Origin: a virus
Direction: 5' to 3' (one strand)
Length of the DNA stretch: 40,215 bases
Virus record (IMG/VR): IMGVR_UViG_3300047173_000096
Location: 1-40,215 of that record
Part shown: positions 1 through 40,215 of the stretch, in pieces
How positions within the stretch are numbered: position 1 is the stretch's first letter
How the letters are laid out: every line of letters begins with the position of its first letter
Notes under the pieces: model-generated
What the model saw: only the letters and a program-made list of their open reading frames with translations
What the model was told of the DNA's origin: nothing
Database searches by the model: none
Translations under genes and position numbers: made by a program

Positions 1-96
1 GAGTAAGAATCGGAGGTCAAGTATAATAACGATTCACAATGTCGATTATTATACCTGATCTCCAGATTTTTGCAAGAAAAGAAATTATTTGGAGAT
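1..96. repeat. Terminal direct repeat, left copy (identical to 39634-39729)
   Basis: The first 96 bases recur without a mismatch at 39634-39729. They form the leader of two alternative initiator genes and end at the ribosome binding site GGAGAT. Beyond base 96 the two copies are unrelated until the second shared block (475-506 and 40184-40215). This is what a circular molecule read slightly more than once around would give, entering one allele of a variable locus on the left and another on the right. A true second copy of the locus on a larger replicon is the alternative. Confidence 0.95.
14..61 (+). promoter_or_regulatory. Inverted repeat in the initiator leader, probable operator or RNA hairpin
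   Basis: Two 16-base arms, 14-29 and 46-61, match at 14 of 16 positions as an inverted repeat around a 16-base loop; the core GTATAATAA / TTATTATAC is perfect. It lies 40 bases before the ATG at 101, in the leader expected from the promoter seen at 39538-39566 once the circle is closed. It could be an autoregulatory operator for the initiator or an RNA stem controlling its translation. The same repeat precedes the second initiator allele at 39647-39694. Confidence 0.6.
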
Positions 97-100
97 ATCA

Positions 101-943
101 ATGACACAAGTTCAATCAAGTTATTACTCAGTAACACCAGCAGAAGTTAGATACTGCAAAAATTTAGAACCTAATGCAAAACTTCTTTATGGAGAAATAA
201 GTGCGCTTTGCAATCAAGAAGGATTTTGTTGGGCTTCAAATCGTCATTTTTCTCAACTTTATGATGTTGATATTCGTACTATTCAAAGATGGCTCGATTC
301 ACTTCAAAAAAATGGATTCATAGCTATTCAAAAAGATAAAAACAAATTTAACTCACAAAGACGTATATACTTGAGTCATGCTTTTAAAATATTAATTACA
401 GAAGGACAAAAATGTCACCCCCCCATGACAAAAATGTCACCCATAATATTAAAAGATAATAATACAAGTAATACTATTATTGCGGACCCTCCAAAGAAGA
501 TGCCTGCCGGCGGCAATAATAATTTTCATAAATGCTTAGAAAAATGCGAAGACCTTTCCTTGAAGCAAAAGATCCAGATAAGCAAATTTCCTGAAGAAAT
601 CGTAGCCCAGGCTATTCGTTATGCATATCATCCAACTACCAAAATTCAAGGAGGCGCAATCGGACGACTTAAACTTATCCAGTATTTCATCAGAAATCCC
701 GATCAGTTCGAACCAACAATGAAAGATTTAGACAATCCTCCAGAATTAAAAACCAAAAAAGATGTTCTTTTGGGAAAATTTAAAAAAGGCAAAATTTACA
801 ACGGTTATGAATTTATCCAAGATGAAATCGGCGTTGGATTTTTAAAACCTGGAATGATGCAACCGTATTCTGTGAATTGGAATGTCTCAAATTTTGAAGC
901 CGAATTTTTAAAATTGTTAACAAAATTAAAAATAGATTCTTGA
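101..943 (+). CDS. Replication initiator, allele 1 (helix-turn-helix N-terminus)
   Basis: 280 residues. Residues about 15-95 form a helix-turn-helix domain of the kind found in plasmid and phage initiators, with hydrophobic stretches such as NAKLLYGEISALC followed by ASNRHFSQLYDVDIRTIQRW as the recognition region. A Pro/Lys-rich linker begins with IIADPPKKMP and leads to a C-terminal domain from about residue 140. I start at ATG 101 because GGAGAT sits 4-9 bases upstream; an in-frame TTG at 89 lies inside the ribosome binding site. The linker DNA carries direct repeats that look like origin iterons, as in the lambda O gene. The N-terminal half differs completely in the allele at 39735-40215 while the leader and linker are identical. 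The initiator role is inference from domain plan and iterons; a plain transcription factor is possible. Confidence 0.75.
   Translation: MTQVQSSYYSVTPAEVRYCKNLEPNAKLLYGEISALCNQEGFCWASNRHFSQLYDVDIRTIQRWLDSLQKNGFIAIQKDKNKFNSQRRIYLSHAFKILITEGQKCHPPMTKMSPIILKDNNTSNTIIADPPKKMPAGGNNNFHKCLEKCEDLSLKQKIQISKFPEEIVAQAIRYAYHPTTKIQGGAIGRLKLIQYFIRNPDQFEPTMKDLDNPPELKTKKDVLLGKFKKGKIYNGYEFIQDEIGVGFLKPGMMQPYSVNWNVSNFEAEFLKLLTKLKIDS
405..482 (+). other. Putative intragenic replication origin (iterons plus AT-rich stretch), allele 1
   Basis: The 16-base unit GACAAAAATGTCACCC occurs at 405-420 and exactly again at 427-442, a 22-base period. Each unit contains the inverted repeat GACA-AAAA-TGTC. A run of almost pure A/T with ATAATATTAAAAGATAATAA follows from 443 to about 482. 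Iterons followed by an AT-rich unwinding region, in the part of an initiator gene encoding the interdomain linker, is the layout of lambdoid origins. Only two full units are visible, so the number of binding sites is low. Confidence 0.5.
475..506. repeat. Second shared block of the initiator locus (identical to 40184-40215)
   Basis: 32 identical bases encoding IIADPPKKMP in the same frame in both initiator alleles. The window ends inside this block at 40215, so the true length of the match to the right is unknown. It marks the right-hand crossover boundary of the variable cassette. Confidence 0.9.
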
Positions 944-1155: not shown

Positions 1156-1809
1156 ATGTCAAAAGATAATCCATTTGTAAAATTATTAAAATCTCAAGAA
1201 TCTATAGGACCAGACAAATCAAATATATTTCACATAGCTGATTTTGTTACTAACGCACGATTTGAAAAAGTGATGGGAGAAATTACAAAATCTTTAGCTG
1301 ACTTACATTTCACTATGGCTAATATTTCACTGGCTAGATCTTCCAACCCCAAAGACCTTTCATCCGATCGTAGTCCTCATCACCAATTCCCCGATCAGGA
1401 CGATAGTCAGACTCAGTTATCGCAAGCATCCGAAACGCATCAGAACCATGAGAAGTGTAGTCATGAAAAGGCTTGTCCCCATACACCCGAAACTTCTCGT
1501 TATACTGCTTACGATAGTTCTCCAGACACTTCAGGCCATGTTCACATCTCTTCTCATCGAACCAGCAACGTGATAAAATCATACGAACAGCTTCAATGCC
1601 AGATTCTAAACTTAATTTTGGTGCGACACGGAAATTCAAACCTAGCTTCCGGGCTGTTTCAAGTCTTGTCTTCCCTGTTGTCAATTCCCGCGCTTGAATG
1701 TCATGTGGTGCAACATTTAAATCATATACGCATCCGGTTTCTCGACGGTAATCATCCAGAACGCGTGCATAGTGAGATAATCCTTCACCAGAATTTTCAT
1801 AGTAGTTAA
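1156..1809 (+). CDS. Hypothetical protein whose frame runs antisense into the terminase gene
   Basis: The frame stays open for 217 codons. Codons 1-60 (1156-1335) look like ordinary coding sequence, with segments such as MSKDNPFVKLLKSQ and MGEITKSLADLHF. From 1334 on, the sequence is the opposite strand of the large terminase gene and reads as a low-complexity His/Ser-rich shadow. The likely history is that the gene lost its own stop codon where it meets the terminase, or that only a short N-terminal protein matters. No ribosome binding site stands out before ATG 1156. The start is plausible and the end doubtful. Confidence 0.4.
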   Translation: MSKDNPFVKLLKSQESIGPDKSNIFHIADFVTNARFEKVMGEITKSLADLHFTMANISLARSSNPKDLSSDRSPHHQFPDQDDSQTQLSQASETHQNHEKCSHEKACPHTPETSRYTAYDSSPDTSGHVHISSHRTSNVIKSYEQLQCQILNLILVRHGNSNLASGLFQVLSSLLSIPALECHVVQHLNHIRIRFLDGNHPERVHSEIILHQNFHSS

Positions 1810-2665
1810 TCAAATGAATTTCTTTACCAACAAACTGAACGAACCAAATAGCAGTACTGTCACCGATGCCAAGGTCCCAATAAGTACGAACAGGAACAGC
1901 AGGGTCATAGTCAACCGATGTAATCCTTCCTTTCTTTCGAAGTTCATCCATCTGACGGCCATAATAGCTCCCTTCTTGTCCACGATTAAAGTTGCAATAG
2001 AATTCTTGCTGTATCATATCTTCTGGCATCCCCTTACGTCTCTCTGCTTCTATTTGTTCTTCGGTAAGCACTCCCGTATCTCGAACCGTAAGTATTTCAA
2101 AAAACCATTCAGACGGATTTCTTCTAGCTATCTCTGCCAAATCCCACCCATGATTCTTGCCACGTGGTGTGAAAATAAACGCAGCCCATCCTCCATTAGC
2201 AGCAAGTATCGGTTTGACGAATTCATATGCCATAGGGTCCATCAAGCTCCATTCGCTAAAGACAATACCACGTGGATTAGTACCCATGATGGCGTCGTAA
2301 CTGTCAGCTCCTATCAACTGTATCAACGATTGCCCTTTAAGTCCGTTCAACCATATTTTCATCTCTGTATTATTTGGATTACCGTCGATTATACTCTTGG
2401 GAATATAGTCGAGCATTCTTTTCCCATCATTCGTCATACCATCCCAGAGAACACGCTTAGCTTGGGCGAAACTTGGGAGAAAGTAGTAATACGTTCCAGG
2501 CTCAAGATAAGCACGCTTAATCATGTAATTCCACATCGTCGTGTCCTTGCCCCCCCTTCGATGCACGACCCAACAAACGTTTTTTACCCCATCATCTAAT
2601 GCATTCAAAACTTTATATTGATAAGTTCTTGGTTCATATCCATGTGGAAGTATAATATCGACCAT
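1334..2665 (-). CDS. terL: Terminase large subunit (packaging ATPase and nuclease)
   Basis: 443 residues, full length for the family. It translocates DNA into the prohead and cuts the concatemer. The ATPase half shows a Walker A-like HRRGGKD at residues 35-41, Walker B VFSEW at 135-139 with the catalytic Glu, and a coupling motif FTPRG near 165-169. The RNase H-fold nuclease half shows acidic residues in YWDLGIGDST (D264), APHDIQ (D322) and HGSDAF (D409). Its 3' end faces the plus-strand genes at 101-1809. Once the circle is closed it lies just upstream of the portal gene at 39433, the usual terminase-portal order. The small subunit is 5 kb upstream at 7635-8054. Confidence 0.95.
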   Translation of the reverse strand: MVDIILPHGYEPRTYQYKVLNALDDGVKNVCWVVHRRGGKDTTMWNYMIKRAYLEPGTYYYFLPSFAQAKRVLWDGMTNDGKRMLDYIPKSIIDGNPNNTEMKIWLNGLKGQSLIQLIGADSYDAIMGTNPRGIVFSEWSLMDPMAYEFVKPILAANGGWAAFIFTPRGKNHGWDLAEIARRNPSEWFFEILTVRDTGVLTEEQIEAERRKGMPEDMIQQEFYCNFNRGQEGSYYGRQMDELRKKGRITSVDYDPAVPVRTYWDLGIGDSTAIWFVQFVGKEIHLINYYENSGEGLSHYARVLDDYRRETGCVYDLNVAPHDIQARELTTGKTRLETARKLGLNFRVAPKLSLESGIEAVRMILSRCWFDEKRCEHGLKCLENYRKQYNEKFRVYGDKPFHDYTSHGSDAFRMLAITESDYRPDRGIGDEDYDRMKGLWGWKI

Positions 2666-3079: not shown

Positions 3080-3146
3080 CAAACCAACCTACCGTACGCA
3101 CACCCGGAATTCTCCAGACAGAATAGGTCAGCACCAAGGAGGAAAA

Positions 3147-3241
3147 GCGTCAGAAAGGAATCGAACCTCTAACCACCGATATTGAGTACAACCTAGGAGA
3201 AAAAAACTCGTTCTCGGTCTCTACCATTGAGTTACTGACGC
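3147..3241 (-). tRNA. tRNA-like gene with an enlarged anticodon loop
   Basis: 95 nt on the minus strand. The acceptor arms GCGTCAG and CTGACGC pair perfectly over 7 bp. The D-arm CTC-AATGGTA-GAG, variable loop GGTT and T-arm AGAGG-TTCGATT-CCTTT are all in their normal places. The anticodon stem ACCGA / TCGGT is perfect, but it encloses 34 nt (3180-3213) instead of 7. If the last seven bases CTCAATA are the true loop, U33 is present and the anticodon would be CAA, but T at position 37 is unusual. No CCA is encoded. The extra 27 nt include seven T residues and may be an insertion, making this a tRNA pseudogene, an interrupted tRNA or an attachment-site remnant. The isotype is not assigned. Confidence 0.5.
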
Positions 3242-37415: not shown

Positions 37416-37463
37416 GCTTTATTCCTTTATTGCTTTATTCCTTTATTGCTTTATTCCTTTATT
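37416..37463 (-). repeat. Triple 16-bp tandem repeat containing ribosome binding sites
   Basis: Three exact copies of AATAAAGGAATAAAGC (minus strand), each carrying AAGGA. The first copy encodes the last residues and stop of the portal gene; the last abuts ATG 37415. The same words form the leader at 10541-10576 on the opposite strand. Confidence 0.85.
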
Positions 37464-39433
37464 GCCTGTTGAGGAACTACTGTATCGGCTGCTGCTAACC
37501 TTTGCTCTTCCTCTACCCCACGAATAATTCCAAGTATCTTCTCTGCATGTTCGATTCCCATTCCTTGCTGCTTAAGTTCCATCTCTTGAAACTCTTTACC
37601 TGCGCGAATGATATCCAAAACACTTCTAGATCTTTCTTCTTGAGCCGCTGCCAATCGTTCTTCTGATAATGCTGCGTCGTATTTAATCCTACTAAGCCGC
37701 TCTTCTCCCAAGGCAACATCCGTAAATGCTTTCGCTTCCAGCAACTTGTTGACTCTTTGTTTGTCTTCCAATTCCACTTGCTGTGCTGCTTGTGCCGCTT
37801 GAGTCTGCTGCTCGATCTTTTCCATGAACTTTTTCTGTATTGGGAATGGTGACAACTCCCATAACATTTCGTCTGGTACTTGCGTGCCTCCCATCTTCAT
37901 TGTCCATGCTTGCAAGAACGCAGATGACTTTTGCGAATCTGTCATCACTGCTTCTACAAGATCAACATCATAATCCAAGAAAGTTCCATTATAAAACTCA
38001 GGTGTCGGTTCTTCTTTCAGCAATCTTTCTACTTTGTCCGGCGTGTACTTTTGAATCAGCTTCAATACTTTCTTACTCAATAGGCAATGGGCTTCTCTAA
38101 AATTGTCCATAATGGGACCCAGTTGCATGATAGCCATCGATTGCTTCATCTTAAACAATACGCCGCTCATCCTGTCTGTCTGGTCATTCCCCAACGCTCC
38201 CAAATCAACAAAGTCTTTAATGTCCGCATCGAATGAATCCTGTAATGCAAACAATGCTTCTGGTATATTCGGCGCATCAATTCTTTCTGCATCACTCAAC
38301 TCAAAGCCTGGATTGAAGAATACAATCTTTCCCTGACCTGTCTGAAACAATGACTTCGGATTAGAAACTGCTCCAGACTTCGCCTTCCATCCACTTCCTA
38401 TTTGCGAATCAACGATATCCAAAAGTTTGGACTTTCGCATGTTGTACTCTTCCTGGCTGTCTCTTAATAGTCTCTGTAAAGATTGATATTTCCATTGGTA
38501 CAAATCATACGAAGGTTCAAACACACAGTAAAAGGGCACGAAAGGGTACTCTCCCAAGCCCCAAGGATCCTCACCGCTATATAACAGCCGATTTTCTACT
38601 ATTATATTATACTCGACAGTCTTGTAGTACCCCTCTATAACAGCAAGGTTTGGAAAGAATTGTTGCATCATTTCAAGACGCTTCTTATTCCCTTTCCACG
38701 GCTTCTGCTCTCCCGTAACCTTGTCGATCAAAAGCCATCCCTTTTTATATCTTTGCTTCCAGTACTCGTTGTATGCCAGTAATTCTTGTAATCCCCATTG
38801 TCTTGCATATGGCTCATACGTAAACTTTTCGTCTCTGTTACCATATCCCATTGCATCGACTTCCCTCTCACAACCTGGCACCAGTGACTTAATGACATCT
38901 TTGCTCAAGTACTTACGTCGAGCCATAAAAGTGCAGTCTTCTAAGTCTAATCGATAGCTGAATGGGTCCCAGATCACATCATTCCAGTTATCTAAGTGAA
39001 AGGAAACTCGTCCATTCACATAATCTTGTCGATAATCAACCCAAGGCGATACCCACGAAACTCCTGATATCAAACTTCCATGCCTTGCTTTCTGCATGAT
39101 TCGATATCCATTGTTGCTGCTCATTGTCTGTCGAAGAAGTTCTGTCAATTGCTCTGCTGTCTTTGGATTTGAGTTTTCTCTTGCTACAACAACTTCTTGA
39201 TGCTCGTTAGCGCTCAGATACCCGCTTACCATGTTGATGGTCTTTCGCGACTTATTGAACGTGAAAGCGTTTCGTCTCTCTTCATTCAAGTATCTCAGCT
39301 GATCCAAACTCCACTGATTTCCAAGATAAAATCCCACATCTCGATATGCTTCAGCGTAATATGTGTTAAGAAGCATGTACGCGCGGTTGTAATCTTGCGT
39401 GAAATCACTGACAACATCGTAATCTGTCGGCAT
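37451..39433 (-). CDS. Portal protein (P22-type)
   Basis: 660 residues, near the size of P22 portal. The N-terminus (DVVSDFTQDYNRAYMLLN, then GFYLGNQWSLDQLRYL and RKTINMVSGYLSANE) is that of the P22-portal family. A helical, Gln/Ala/Glu-rich barrel follows at about 540-640 (QQTQAAQAAQQVELEDKQR). It forms the dodecameric channel for DNA entry and exit and binds the terminase. A 19-bp element variant ends 18 bases before its start, so it heads the late head operon. Confidence 0.9.
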   Translation of the reverse strand: MPTDYDVVSDFTQDYNRAYMLLNTYYAEAYRDVGFYLGNQWSLDQLRYLNEERRNAFTFNKSRKTINMVSGYLSANEHQEVVVARENSNPKTAEQLTELLRQTMSSNNGYRIMQKARHGSLISGVSWVSPWVDYRQDYVNGRVSFHLDNWNDVIWDPFSYRLDLEDCTFMARRKYLSKDVIKSLVPGCEREVDAMGYGNRDEKFTYEPYARQWGLQELLAYNEYWKQRYKKGWLLIDKVTGEQKPWKGNKKRLEMMQQFFPNLAVIEGYYKTVEYNIIVENRLLYSGEDPWGLGEYPFVPFYCVFEPSYDLYQWKYQSLQRLLRDSQEEYNMRKSKLLDIVDSQIGSGWKAKSGAVSNPKSLFQTGQGKIVFFNPGFELSDAERIDAPNIPEALFALQDSFDADIKDFVDLGALGNDQTDRMSGVLFKMKQSMAIMQLGPIMDNFREAHCLLSKKVLKLIQKYTPDKVERLLKEEPTPEFYNGTFLDYDVDLVEAVMTDSQKSSAFLQAWTMKMGGTQVPDEMLWELSPFPIQKKFMEKIEQQTQAAQAAQQVELEDKQRVNKLLEAKAFTDVALGEERLSRIKYDAALSEERLAAAQEERSRSVLDIIRAGKEFQEMELKQQGMGIEHAEKILGIIRGVEEEQRLAAADTVVPQQAIKE

Positions 39434-39633: not shown

Positions 39634-39729
39634 GAGTAAGAATCGGAGGTCAAGTATAATAACGATTCACAATGTCGATTATTATACCTGATCTCCAGAT
39701 TTTTGCAAGAAAAGAAATTATTTGGAGAT
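39634..39729. repeat. Terminal direct repeat, right copy (identical to 1-96)
   Basis: Same 96 bases as the left end of the window, including the inverted repeat (39647-39694) and the GGAGAT ribosome binding site. It is followed by a different initiator allele. Confidence 0.95.
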
Positions 39730-39734
39730 CATTA

Positions 39735-40215
39735 ATGTCAATTTCATCGCAAGACAATTCAACAATCCATAATGTTAGACTCGATTCACATTTCACAATA
39801 ACATCAAATTTAACCCCAGAAGACCCTAACTTAAGTTGGGCTGCTAAAGGGTTACTTTGGTACATACTTAGTCGACCGAAAGATTGGTCTGTTCATACTT
39901 GGCAATTAGAAAAAATATATCAAGGTAAAGCCAGAGGAAACAAAAAAGATGCAATTCAAAGCATAATGAAAGAGCTAAGAAACGCCGGATATATTAAATA
40001 CATAAAGTACAGAGATTCAAGGGGTAAGTGGTCGCATAGATATGATGTTTATCCAATGCCAGTTAAGGATTTTCAAAAAATTTTTCCAGAACCGGCTCAA
40101 CCAGATACGGTTCATCCAGACGCGGTTAAGCCCGTTGTATTAACAAGTACTGATTCACCAAGTACTGAATTAATAAGAAAGAATATTATTGCGGACCCTC
40201 CAAAGAAGATGCCTG
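39735..40215 (+). CDS. Replication initiator, allele 2 (partial at window end)
   Basis: 160 codons visible, open at the right edge. After a 25-residue lead, NLSWAAKGLLWYILSRPKDW, then DAIQSIMKELRNAGYIKYIK, then KWSHRYDVYPMP form a winged helix-turn-helix of the plasmid and phage initiator type, unrelated in sequence to that of allele 1. A linker with tandem P-E-P-A-Q / P-D-T-V-H / P-D-A-V-K follows, then IIADPPKKMP shared with allele 1. The C-terminal domain would be that encoded from 507 onward if the circle closes. Confidence 0.75.
   Translation, partial: MSISSQDNSTIHNVRLDSHFTITSNLTPEDPNLSWAAKGLLWYILSRPKDWSVHTWQLEKIYQGKARGNKKDAIQSIMKELRNAGYIKYIKYRDSRGKWSHRYDVYPMPVKDFQKIFPEPAQPDTVHPDAVKPVVLTSTDSPSTELIRKNIIADPPKKMP
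40086..40130 (+). repeat. Tandem 15-bp iterons in initiator allele 2
   Basis: Three abutting units, CCAGAACCGGCTCAA, CCAGATACGGTTCAT and CCAGACGCGGTTAAG, share CCAGA-NN-CGG-Y-T. They occupy the same linker position as the iterons of allele 1 but have a different sequence and period. An AT-rich stretch (40131-40190) follows, as in allele 1. Confidence 0.5.
40184..40215. repeat. Right-hand shared block, equal to 475-506
   Basis: All 32 remaining bases of the window match the linker of allele 1 in phase, which closes the circle in sequence terms. Confidence 0.9.

Follow-up and report, generated by a model that had tools for sequence, protein, structure and literature searches.

Does a phage replication initiator gene that occurs in two versions carry, in each of them, its own origin of replication? 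The question is raised by the two ends of an IMG/VR virus record of 40,215 bases, analysed here over its whole length and referred to as the window. The ends share an upstream block of 96 bases and a junction block of 32 bases and differ from each other between the two, where each codes for the N-terminal part of an initiator (alleles 1 and 2, Table 1). Allele 1 is an HTH_36 replication initiator by its Pfam match (41.2 bits against a gathering score of 25). The domain of allele 2 is HTH_36-like, and HTH_36 is matched by 24 of the 28 aligned members of its class (see below); 13 of the 28 also match the replication-initiation domain DnaB_2.

Two initiator versions between identical flanks

The N-terminal domains of the two alleles have no detectable similarity, yet their flanks (96 bases upstream and at least 32 bases downstream) are identical, so that the window most likely represents one circular phage (~39.6 kb) whose initiator gene occurs in the sample with either of two 5' parts. 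The downstream identity is a minimum, the contig stopping 32 bases into the shared block; the C-terminal half of allele 2 lies outside the contig and is taken from its overlap with positions 475 onwards. The implied circle measures 39,633 bases via allele 1 and 39,709 bases via allele 2.

Shared blocks of at least 96 bases can collapse in assembly, and the contig alone would thus be compatible with tandem initiator genes in one genome; an assembly chimera would likewise remove the need for population variants. We consider such origins improbable, given that both implied circles (39.63–39.71 kb) fall within the 38.5–41.5 kb spanned by near-full-length relatives and that the syntenic relatives read have a single initiator near the terminase. 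Two tandem genes in one genome were rejected on these grounds of genome size and relatives. The pairing of domain and iterons described below would hold whether the versions are alternative alleles or tandem genes. The exact junction sequence was absent from all other viral contigs searched, and thus no second genome with identical flanks was found among them.

Table 1. Features of the initiator locus and its surroundings in the window.
Feature	Position	Strand	Evidence
Upstream block common to both alleles (leader, inverted repeat 12–63)	1–96	.	exact match to 39634–39729
Initiator gene, allele 1, 280 aa	101–943	+	open frame; HTH_36 1.5e-10; PHROG replication initiation 1.5e-21
HTH_36 DNA-binding domain, allele 1, aa 20–74	158–322	+	Pfam, above gathering score
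Iteron 1, GACAAAAATGTCACCC	405–420	+	exact repeat; class-wide palindrome covariation
Iteron 2, GACAAAAATGTCACCC; full palindrome TGACAAAAATGTCA at 426–439	427–442	+	exact repeat
A+T-rich segment with TAATAATACAAG (457–468), candidate unwinding element	443–482	+	87.5% A+T; AATAATACA DNA-level constraint in class
Part common to both alleles (junction, linker, C-terminal domain)	475–943	+	32 bases exact overlap with 40184–40215; C family n=12
Large terminase gene	1334–2665	-	domain and PHROG matches
P22-like portal gene	37451–39433	-	domain and PHROG matches
Upstream block, second copy	39634–39729	.	exact match to 1–96
Initiator gene, allele 2, 5' part, 160 codons, running off contig end	39735–40215	+	open frame; PHROG replication initiation 2.1e-16
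HTH_36-like domain, allele 2, aa 32–87	39828–39995	+	Pfam 0.0043, below gathering score
Three 15-base iterons CCAGA-NN-CGG	40086–40130	+	class arrays; unit also in TP901-1 rep
Second 15-base repeat CAAGTACTGA (twice), candidate unwinding element, allele 2	40144–40173	+	similar AAGTACTAA elements in class
Shared junction block, copy at contig end	40184–40215	+	exact match to 475–506

Several other features of the window were observed. A sigma-70-like TTGCAA-16-TATAAT site (48–75 and 39681–39708, minus strand) sits inside the leader inverted repeat and points leftwards to the portal gene; the same site lies upstream of the initiator in other phages (L023, L026, L029, L035 and others), exact in four relatives and close in several more. 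A leader stem CTCC (59–70; 39689–39700) can pair either with its 5' arm or with a Shine-Dalgarno-like GGAG (90–101; 39720–39731), and such alternative pairing before the start codon is a possible translational switch. Rfam places a tRNA at 3146–3241 on the minus strand (39 bits, gathering score 29) that was not found by ARAGORN. GC skew, which had been put forward as a way to locate the origin, tracks gene orientation and not the initiator locus.

Repeats behind the DNA-binding domains

A preliminary description of this DNA had reported iterons in the linker-coding part of both alleles, and these were recovered. The two copies of GACAAAAATGTCACCC in allele 1 start 22 bases apart; this 16-base match, the longest exact repeat within 60 bases, has p=0.001 against 2000 codon-order shuffles, and its 12-mer GACAAAAATGTC has no further exact copy in the window. 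The units of allele 2 (CCAGAACCGG, CCAGATACGG and CCAGACGCGG) start at 40086, 40101 and 40116, and a period of 15 is the best among 21 tested over the gene (z=5.6, p=0.0015 against codon-order shuffles) when scored over three copies, the two-copy repeat score giving p=0.11. One other CCAGAnnCGG copy, isolated, is found in the window (34738, minus strand). Both arrays do lie, as had been described, between the DNA-binding domain and the start of the shared block (475 and 40184). The A+T-rich DNA said to follow both arrays is evident for allele 1, where 443–482 reaches an A+T content attained by 0.16% of window 40-mers, and hardly so for allele 2, where 40131–40183 is 68% A+T against 67% for the allele 1 gene. 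We count this small enrichment against the reading of each allele as a cassette of initiator and origin, along with the fact that allele 1 has just two full units and allele 2 just three.

To place allele 1 among viruses we used a profile of its N-terminal domain, blind to repeats, that fetched 80 viral loci with 73 distinct linkers. A direct repeat stands right behind the HTH in 65 of these (p≤0.02), a few linkers being without a detectable array, and the median repeat score, 18 in the linker, drops to 6 where these genes encode the HTH and to 7 in their C-terminal part. In 64 genes, that of the window included, an A-cored 16-mer was picked by repetition alone; its spacing is 22–24 bases in 63 of them, and it falls in each of the three frames (17, 20 and 27 genes). 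The units are palindromes centred on an A-tract, with arms that vary widely between genes (e.g. GTGAC..GTCAC, TTGAC..GTCAA, TTAGC..GCTAA, AGGAC..GTCCT) and are complementary within a gene: 3.91 of 5 pairs match, against 2.79 (sd 0.11, maximum 3.22) in 2000 permutations with right halves swapped between genes, the centre being left free alike for real and swapped halves. Covarying palindrome arms inside coding DNA are what one would expect of a protein-binding site, and together with the mixed reading frames they show, from the comparison of these genes, that the iterons are under selection at the DNA level.

The more alike the N-domains, the more alike the iterons (iteron similarity 0.55 at 50–60% N-domain identity, 0.71 at 70–85% and 0.91 above 85%; Spearman 0.35, Mantel p=0.001), against a correlation of 0.17 with the similarity of the C-terminal part, so that the linker repeats do not vary independently of the N-domain. 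The pair of GACAAAAATGTC copies precedes the HTH-like part of the open frame in two loci (L010, L022), and the order of site and domain is thus not fixed. Of 72 allele-1-type genes, 57 have AATAATAC behind the iterons, where 1.6 would be expected, and the tripeptide NNT is there encoded as AATAATACA in 56 of 59 cases, where codon use would predict 21%. This element, whose copy in allele 1 is at 457–468, keeps one frame, unlike the iterons. The allele-2 class carries AAGTACTAA-type elements instead, allele 2 itself having CAAGTACTGA twice, and the second A+T elements of both classes are candidate unwinding elements.

As a single query the allele 2 protein found no relatives among viral contigs; an alignment query did. 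The N-domain profile gave 80 loci and 66 distinct linkers, allele 2 and the Rep protein of Lactococcus phage TP901-1 (36% identity) included. Tandem arrays are present in 63 of the 66 (p≤0.05), a few again being without a detectable one, with a best period of 15 bases in 32, 16 bases in 17 and 30 bases in 3. Palindromes of the form CCG/CCA...CGG/TGG around an A+T spacer are common among the units, and since 16-base arrays change frame with every copy, the DNA is what is kept. The rep gene of TP901-1 reads CCAGATTCCGATTTT CCAGATGTGGCTTTT CCAGATGTGGGAAAT, which is the unit of allele 2 in the place of allele 2.

The motif alone, as bare DNA, also leads back to such initiators. Two GACAAAAATGTC copies 6–16 bases apart were found at 62 loci in GTDB genomes. 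At 37 of these, an open frame of 120 aa or more contains the motif no earlier than residue 80; some of the others lie at a contig edge, have a short frame or carry the array outside an initiator. Of 35 distinct GTDB genes, 29 use at least two frames for their copies, which translate as DKNV, TKMS or QKC. HTH_36 was matched by 30 of the 32 proteins scanned and a replication-initiation PHROG by 29, and the record titles name six phyla (Bacillota, Bacteroidota, Actinomycetota, Spirochaetota, Acidobacteriota and Proteobacteria). In a viral scan with an extended motif, 13 loci came up, 8 of them directly behind an allele-1-like domain. Arrays of GACAAAAATGTC with a period of 21–22 bases were seen outside initiator-like open frames in four loci (L138, L129, L106, L161), with up to 8 copies in L138. 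In a literature text search TGACAAAAATGTCA was not found, and the 12-mer GACAAAAATGTC appeared only in four papers, unrelated by title and abstract.

Probable exchange and function of the initiator module

Among 24 syntenic relatives and the two window alleles, N-domains form 5 clusters and C-domains 9; the two alleles share their C part because it was constructed from their overlap. Three N clusters are combined with the 12-member C family of the window phage, and the N cluster of allele 2 (18 members) is found on six C families; to judge from these clusters, N- and C-domains reassort among the syntenic relatives. The near-junction sequence ATTATTGCG recurs with other N types (L023, L024, L025, L029), and each N type has its own repeats, e.g. 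GTGTGCAAAATAAAGCTACAC at 23 bases in L025 and GGACACCCATGTC at 22 bases in L045; L046, with 70% N identity to allele 2, has its own repeat TACCAGCTACGGGTG at 15 bases. A P-loop gene (DnaC-like, GxxGxGKT motif) follows initiators with other C-domains in six relatives (L027, L037, L043, L049, L051, L054). No such gene was observed next to initiators with the window's C family, which may thus act on the helicase differently.

The linker repeats are most likely recognised by the DNA-binding part that precedes them, and each allele is very probably a self-contained initiator-origin cassette of the lambda O kind, with its own iterons just behind the binding domain. The suggestion that domain and site travel as one is supported by the arrays behind the HTH in both sets of genes picked by protein. 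The retrieval of HTH_36 initiators by the DNA motif argues for the same reading, as does the presence of allele 2's unit in TP901-1 Rep, for which an in-gene origin has been demonstrated (PMC8965321).

The N-terminal winged-helix domain, presumably as a dimer on the palindromic units, would bind the repeats in the following linker; the adjoining A+T-rich segment would be the likely site of melting when the origin fires, and the C-terminal half would recruit the helicase-loading machinery. Given that domain and iterons lie within ~0.45 kb between the identical flanks, recombination in these flanks could replace the DNA-binding specificity and the origin jointly and leave the C-terminal half in place. 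The window holds two end products of such an exchange and not the event, presumably a pair of crossovers.

As HTH proteins often regulate by binding palindromes as dimers, and the sites are part of what is transcribed with the gene itself, the repeats might instead be operators for transcription or copy number of the initiator. We regard this as very improbable for sites ~0.3 kb into the coding region, distant from the leader and the promoter-like sites and followed by a constrained A+T element, in a layout that is the origin in lambda (PMC4488673) and in TP901-1 (PMC8965321); operator and origin roles can, moreover, coexist. That the linker residues are selected and the DNA repeat is a by-product is extremely improbable: allele 2 alone cannot decide, its 15-base units staying in one frame (PEPAQ PDTVH PDAVK), but class units are read in all three frames, 16-base periods shift frame, palindrome arms covary and the allele 1 copies read differently (GQKCH and MTKMS), and pure peptide repeats were rejected on these mixed frames, which contradict them for the allele-1 class.

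Relation to known initiator-origin systems

Beyond this phage, we lean slightly towards the view that HTH_36 initiators across bacterial phyla, in phages and other elements, share one in-gene origin architecture (a binding domain, palindromic A-tract iterons at 22–24 bases or CCG-type iterons at 15–16 bases, followed by a further A+T element under sequence constraint) and a protein-to-iteron code that can be read, and that this ~0.45-kb module is exchanged whole between phages, leaving alternative specificities in one population. This wider pattern, in which HTH_36 initiator genes of several phyla would reveal the origin, is worth following. If true, origins of uncultured phages would be predictable from sequence, each being contained in its initiator gene, and a large natural set of domain-site pairs would become available for learning and testing a recognition code of winged-helix initiators. 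Two versions that differ just here suggest that replication specificity may be under diversifying selection; possible selecting agents are satellites, superinfecting relatives and origin-directed nucleases, as argued for the PLE satellites and ICP1 (PMC8263062).

In a literature search that covered few subscription journals, no description of these iterons was found. HTH_36 initiators have been annotated in Stx phages, in a source where the word 'iteron' is absent (PMC8951638), and a PDB sequence search returned nothing meaningful for either initiator protein. In Pfam neither allele matches RepA_N (PF06970) at E≤1 or Phage_rep_O (PF04492, the lambda O family); Phage_rep_O was matched by one motif-selected relative, and O-like PHROGs match window proteins weakly.

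Several known systems resemble the arrangement seen here. The N-terminal half of lambda O binds iterons inside the initiator gene with A+T-rich DNA alongside, and replication specificity differs between lambdoid phages (PMC4488673, PMC6022878). As in the window, these iterons lie between the DNA-binding domain and the C-domain, but lambda O belongs to a different Pfam family and has four 19-base iterons, of another period and sequence. Close to allele 2 is the layout of TP901-1 Rep, with a related HTH N-domain and CCAGAT-nn-GG units at a 15-base period directly behind it. In TP901-1, and also in Tuc2009, the origin to which the initiator proteins bind was identified as the direct repeats that their genes contain (PMC8965321). 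TP901-1 Rep differs from the window allele in its C-terminal half and its host group, and for the window we infer the origin role.

Among RepA_N plasmids (pSK41, pTZ2162) the same three-part layout is found, pSK41 having a binding domain, a dispensable linker that encodes ori, and a C-domain (PMC5703833), and semi-palindromic iterons of RepA_N proteins converge on an A-tract (PMC7145576), as in allele 1; these are, however, plasmids and not phages, and the window domain is HTH_36. In the PLE satellites of Vibrio cholerae a conserved C-domain is combined with a binding domain and an origin that vary together, and only cognate pairs replicate (PMC8263062), but their origin lies in a separate non-coding region, whereas that of the window would be in-gene, adjoining the domain that reads it. 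The principle of an initiator-origin cassette is thus already known from lambda O, TP901-1, pSK41 and PLE; what is new here is its breadth, the covarying palindromes and the second constrained A+T element.
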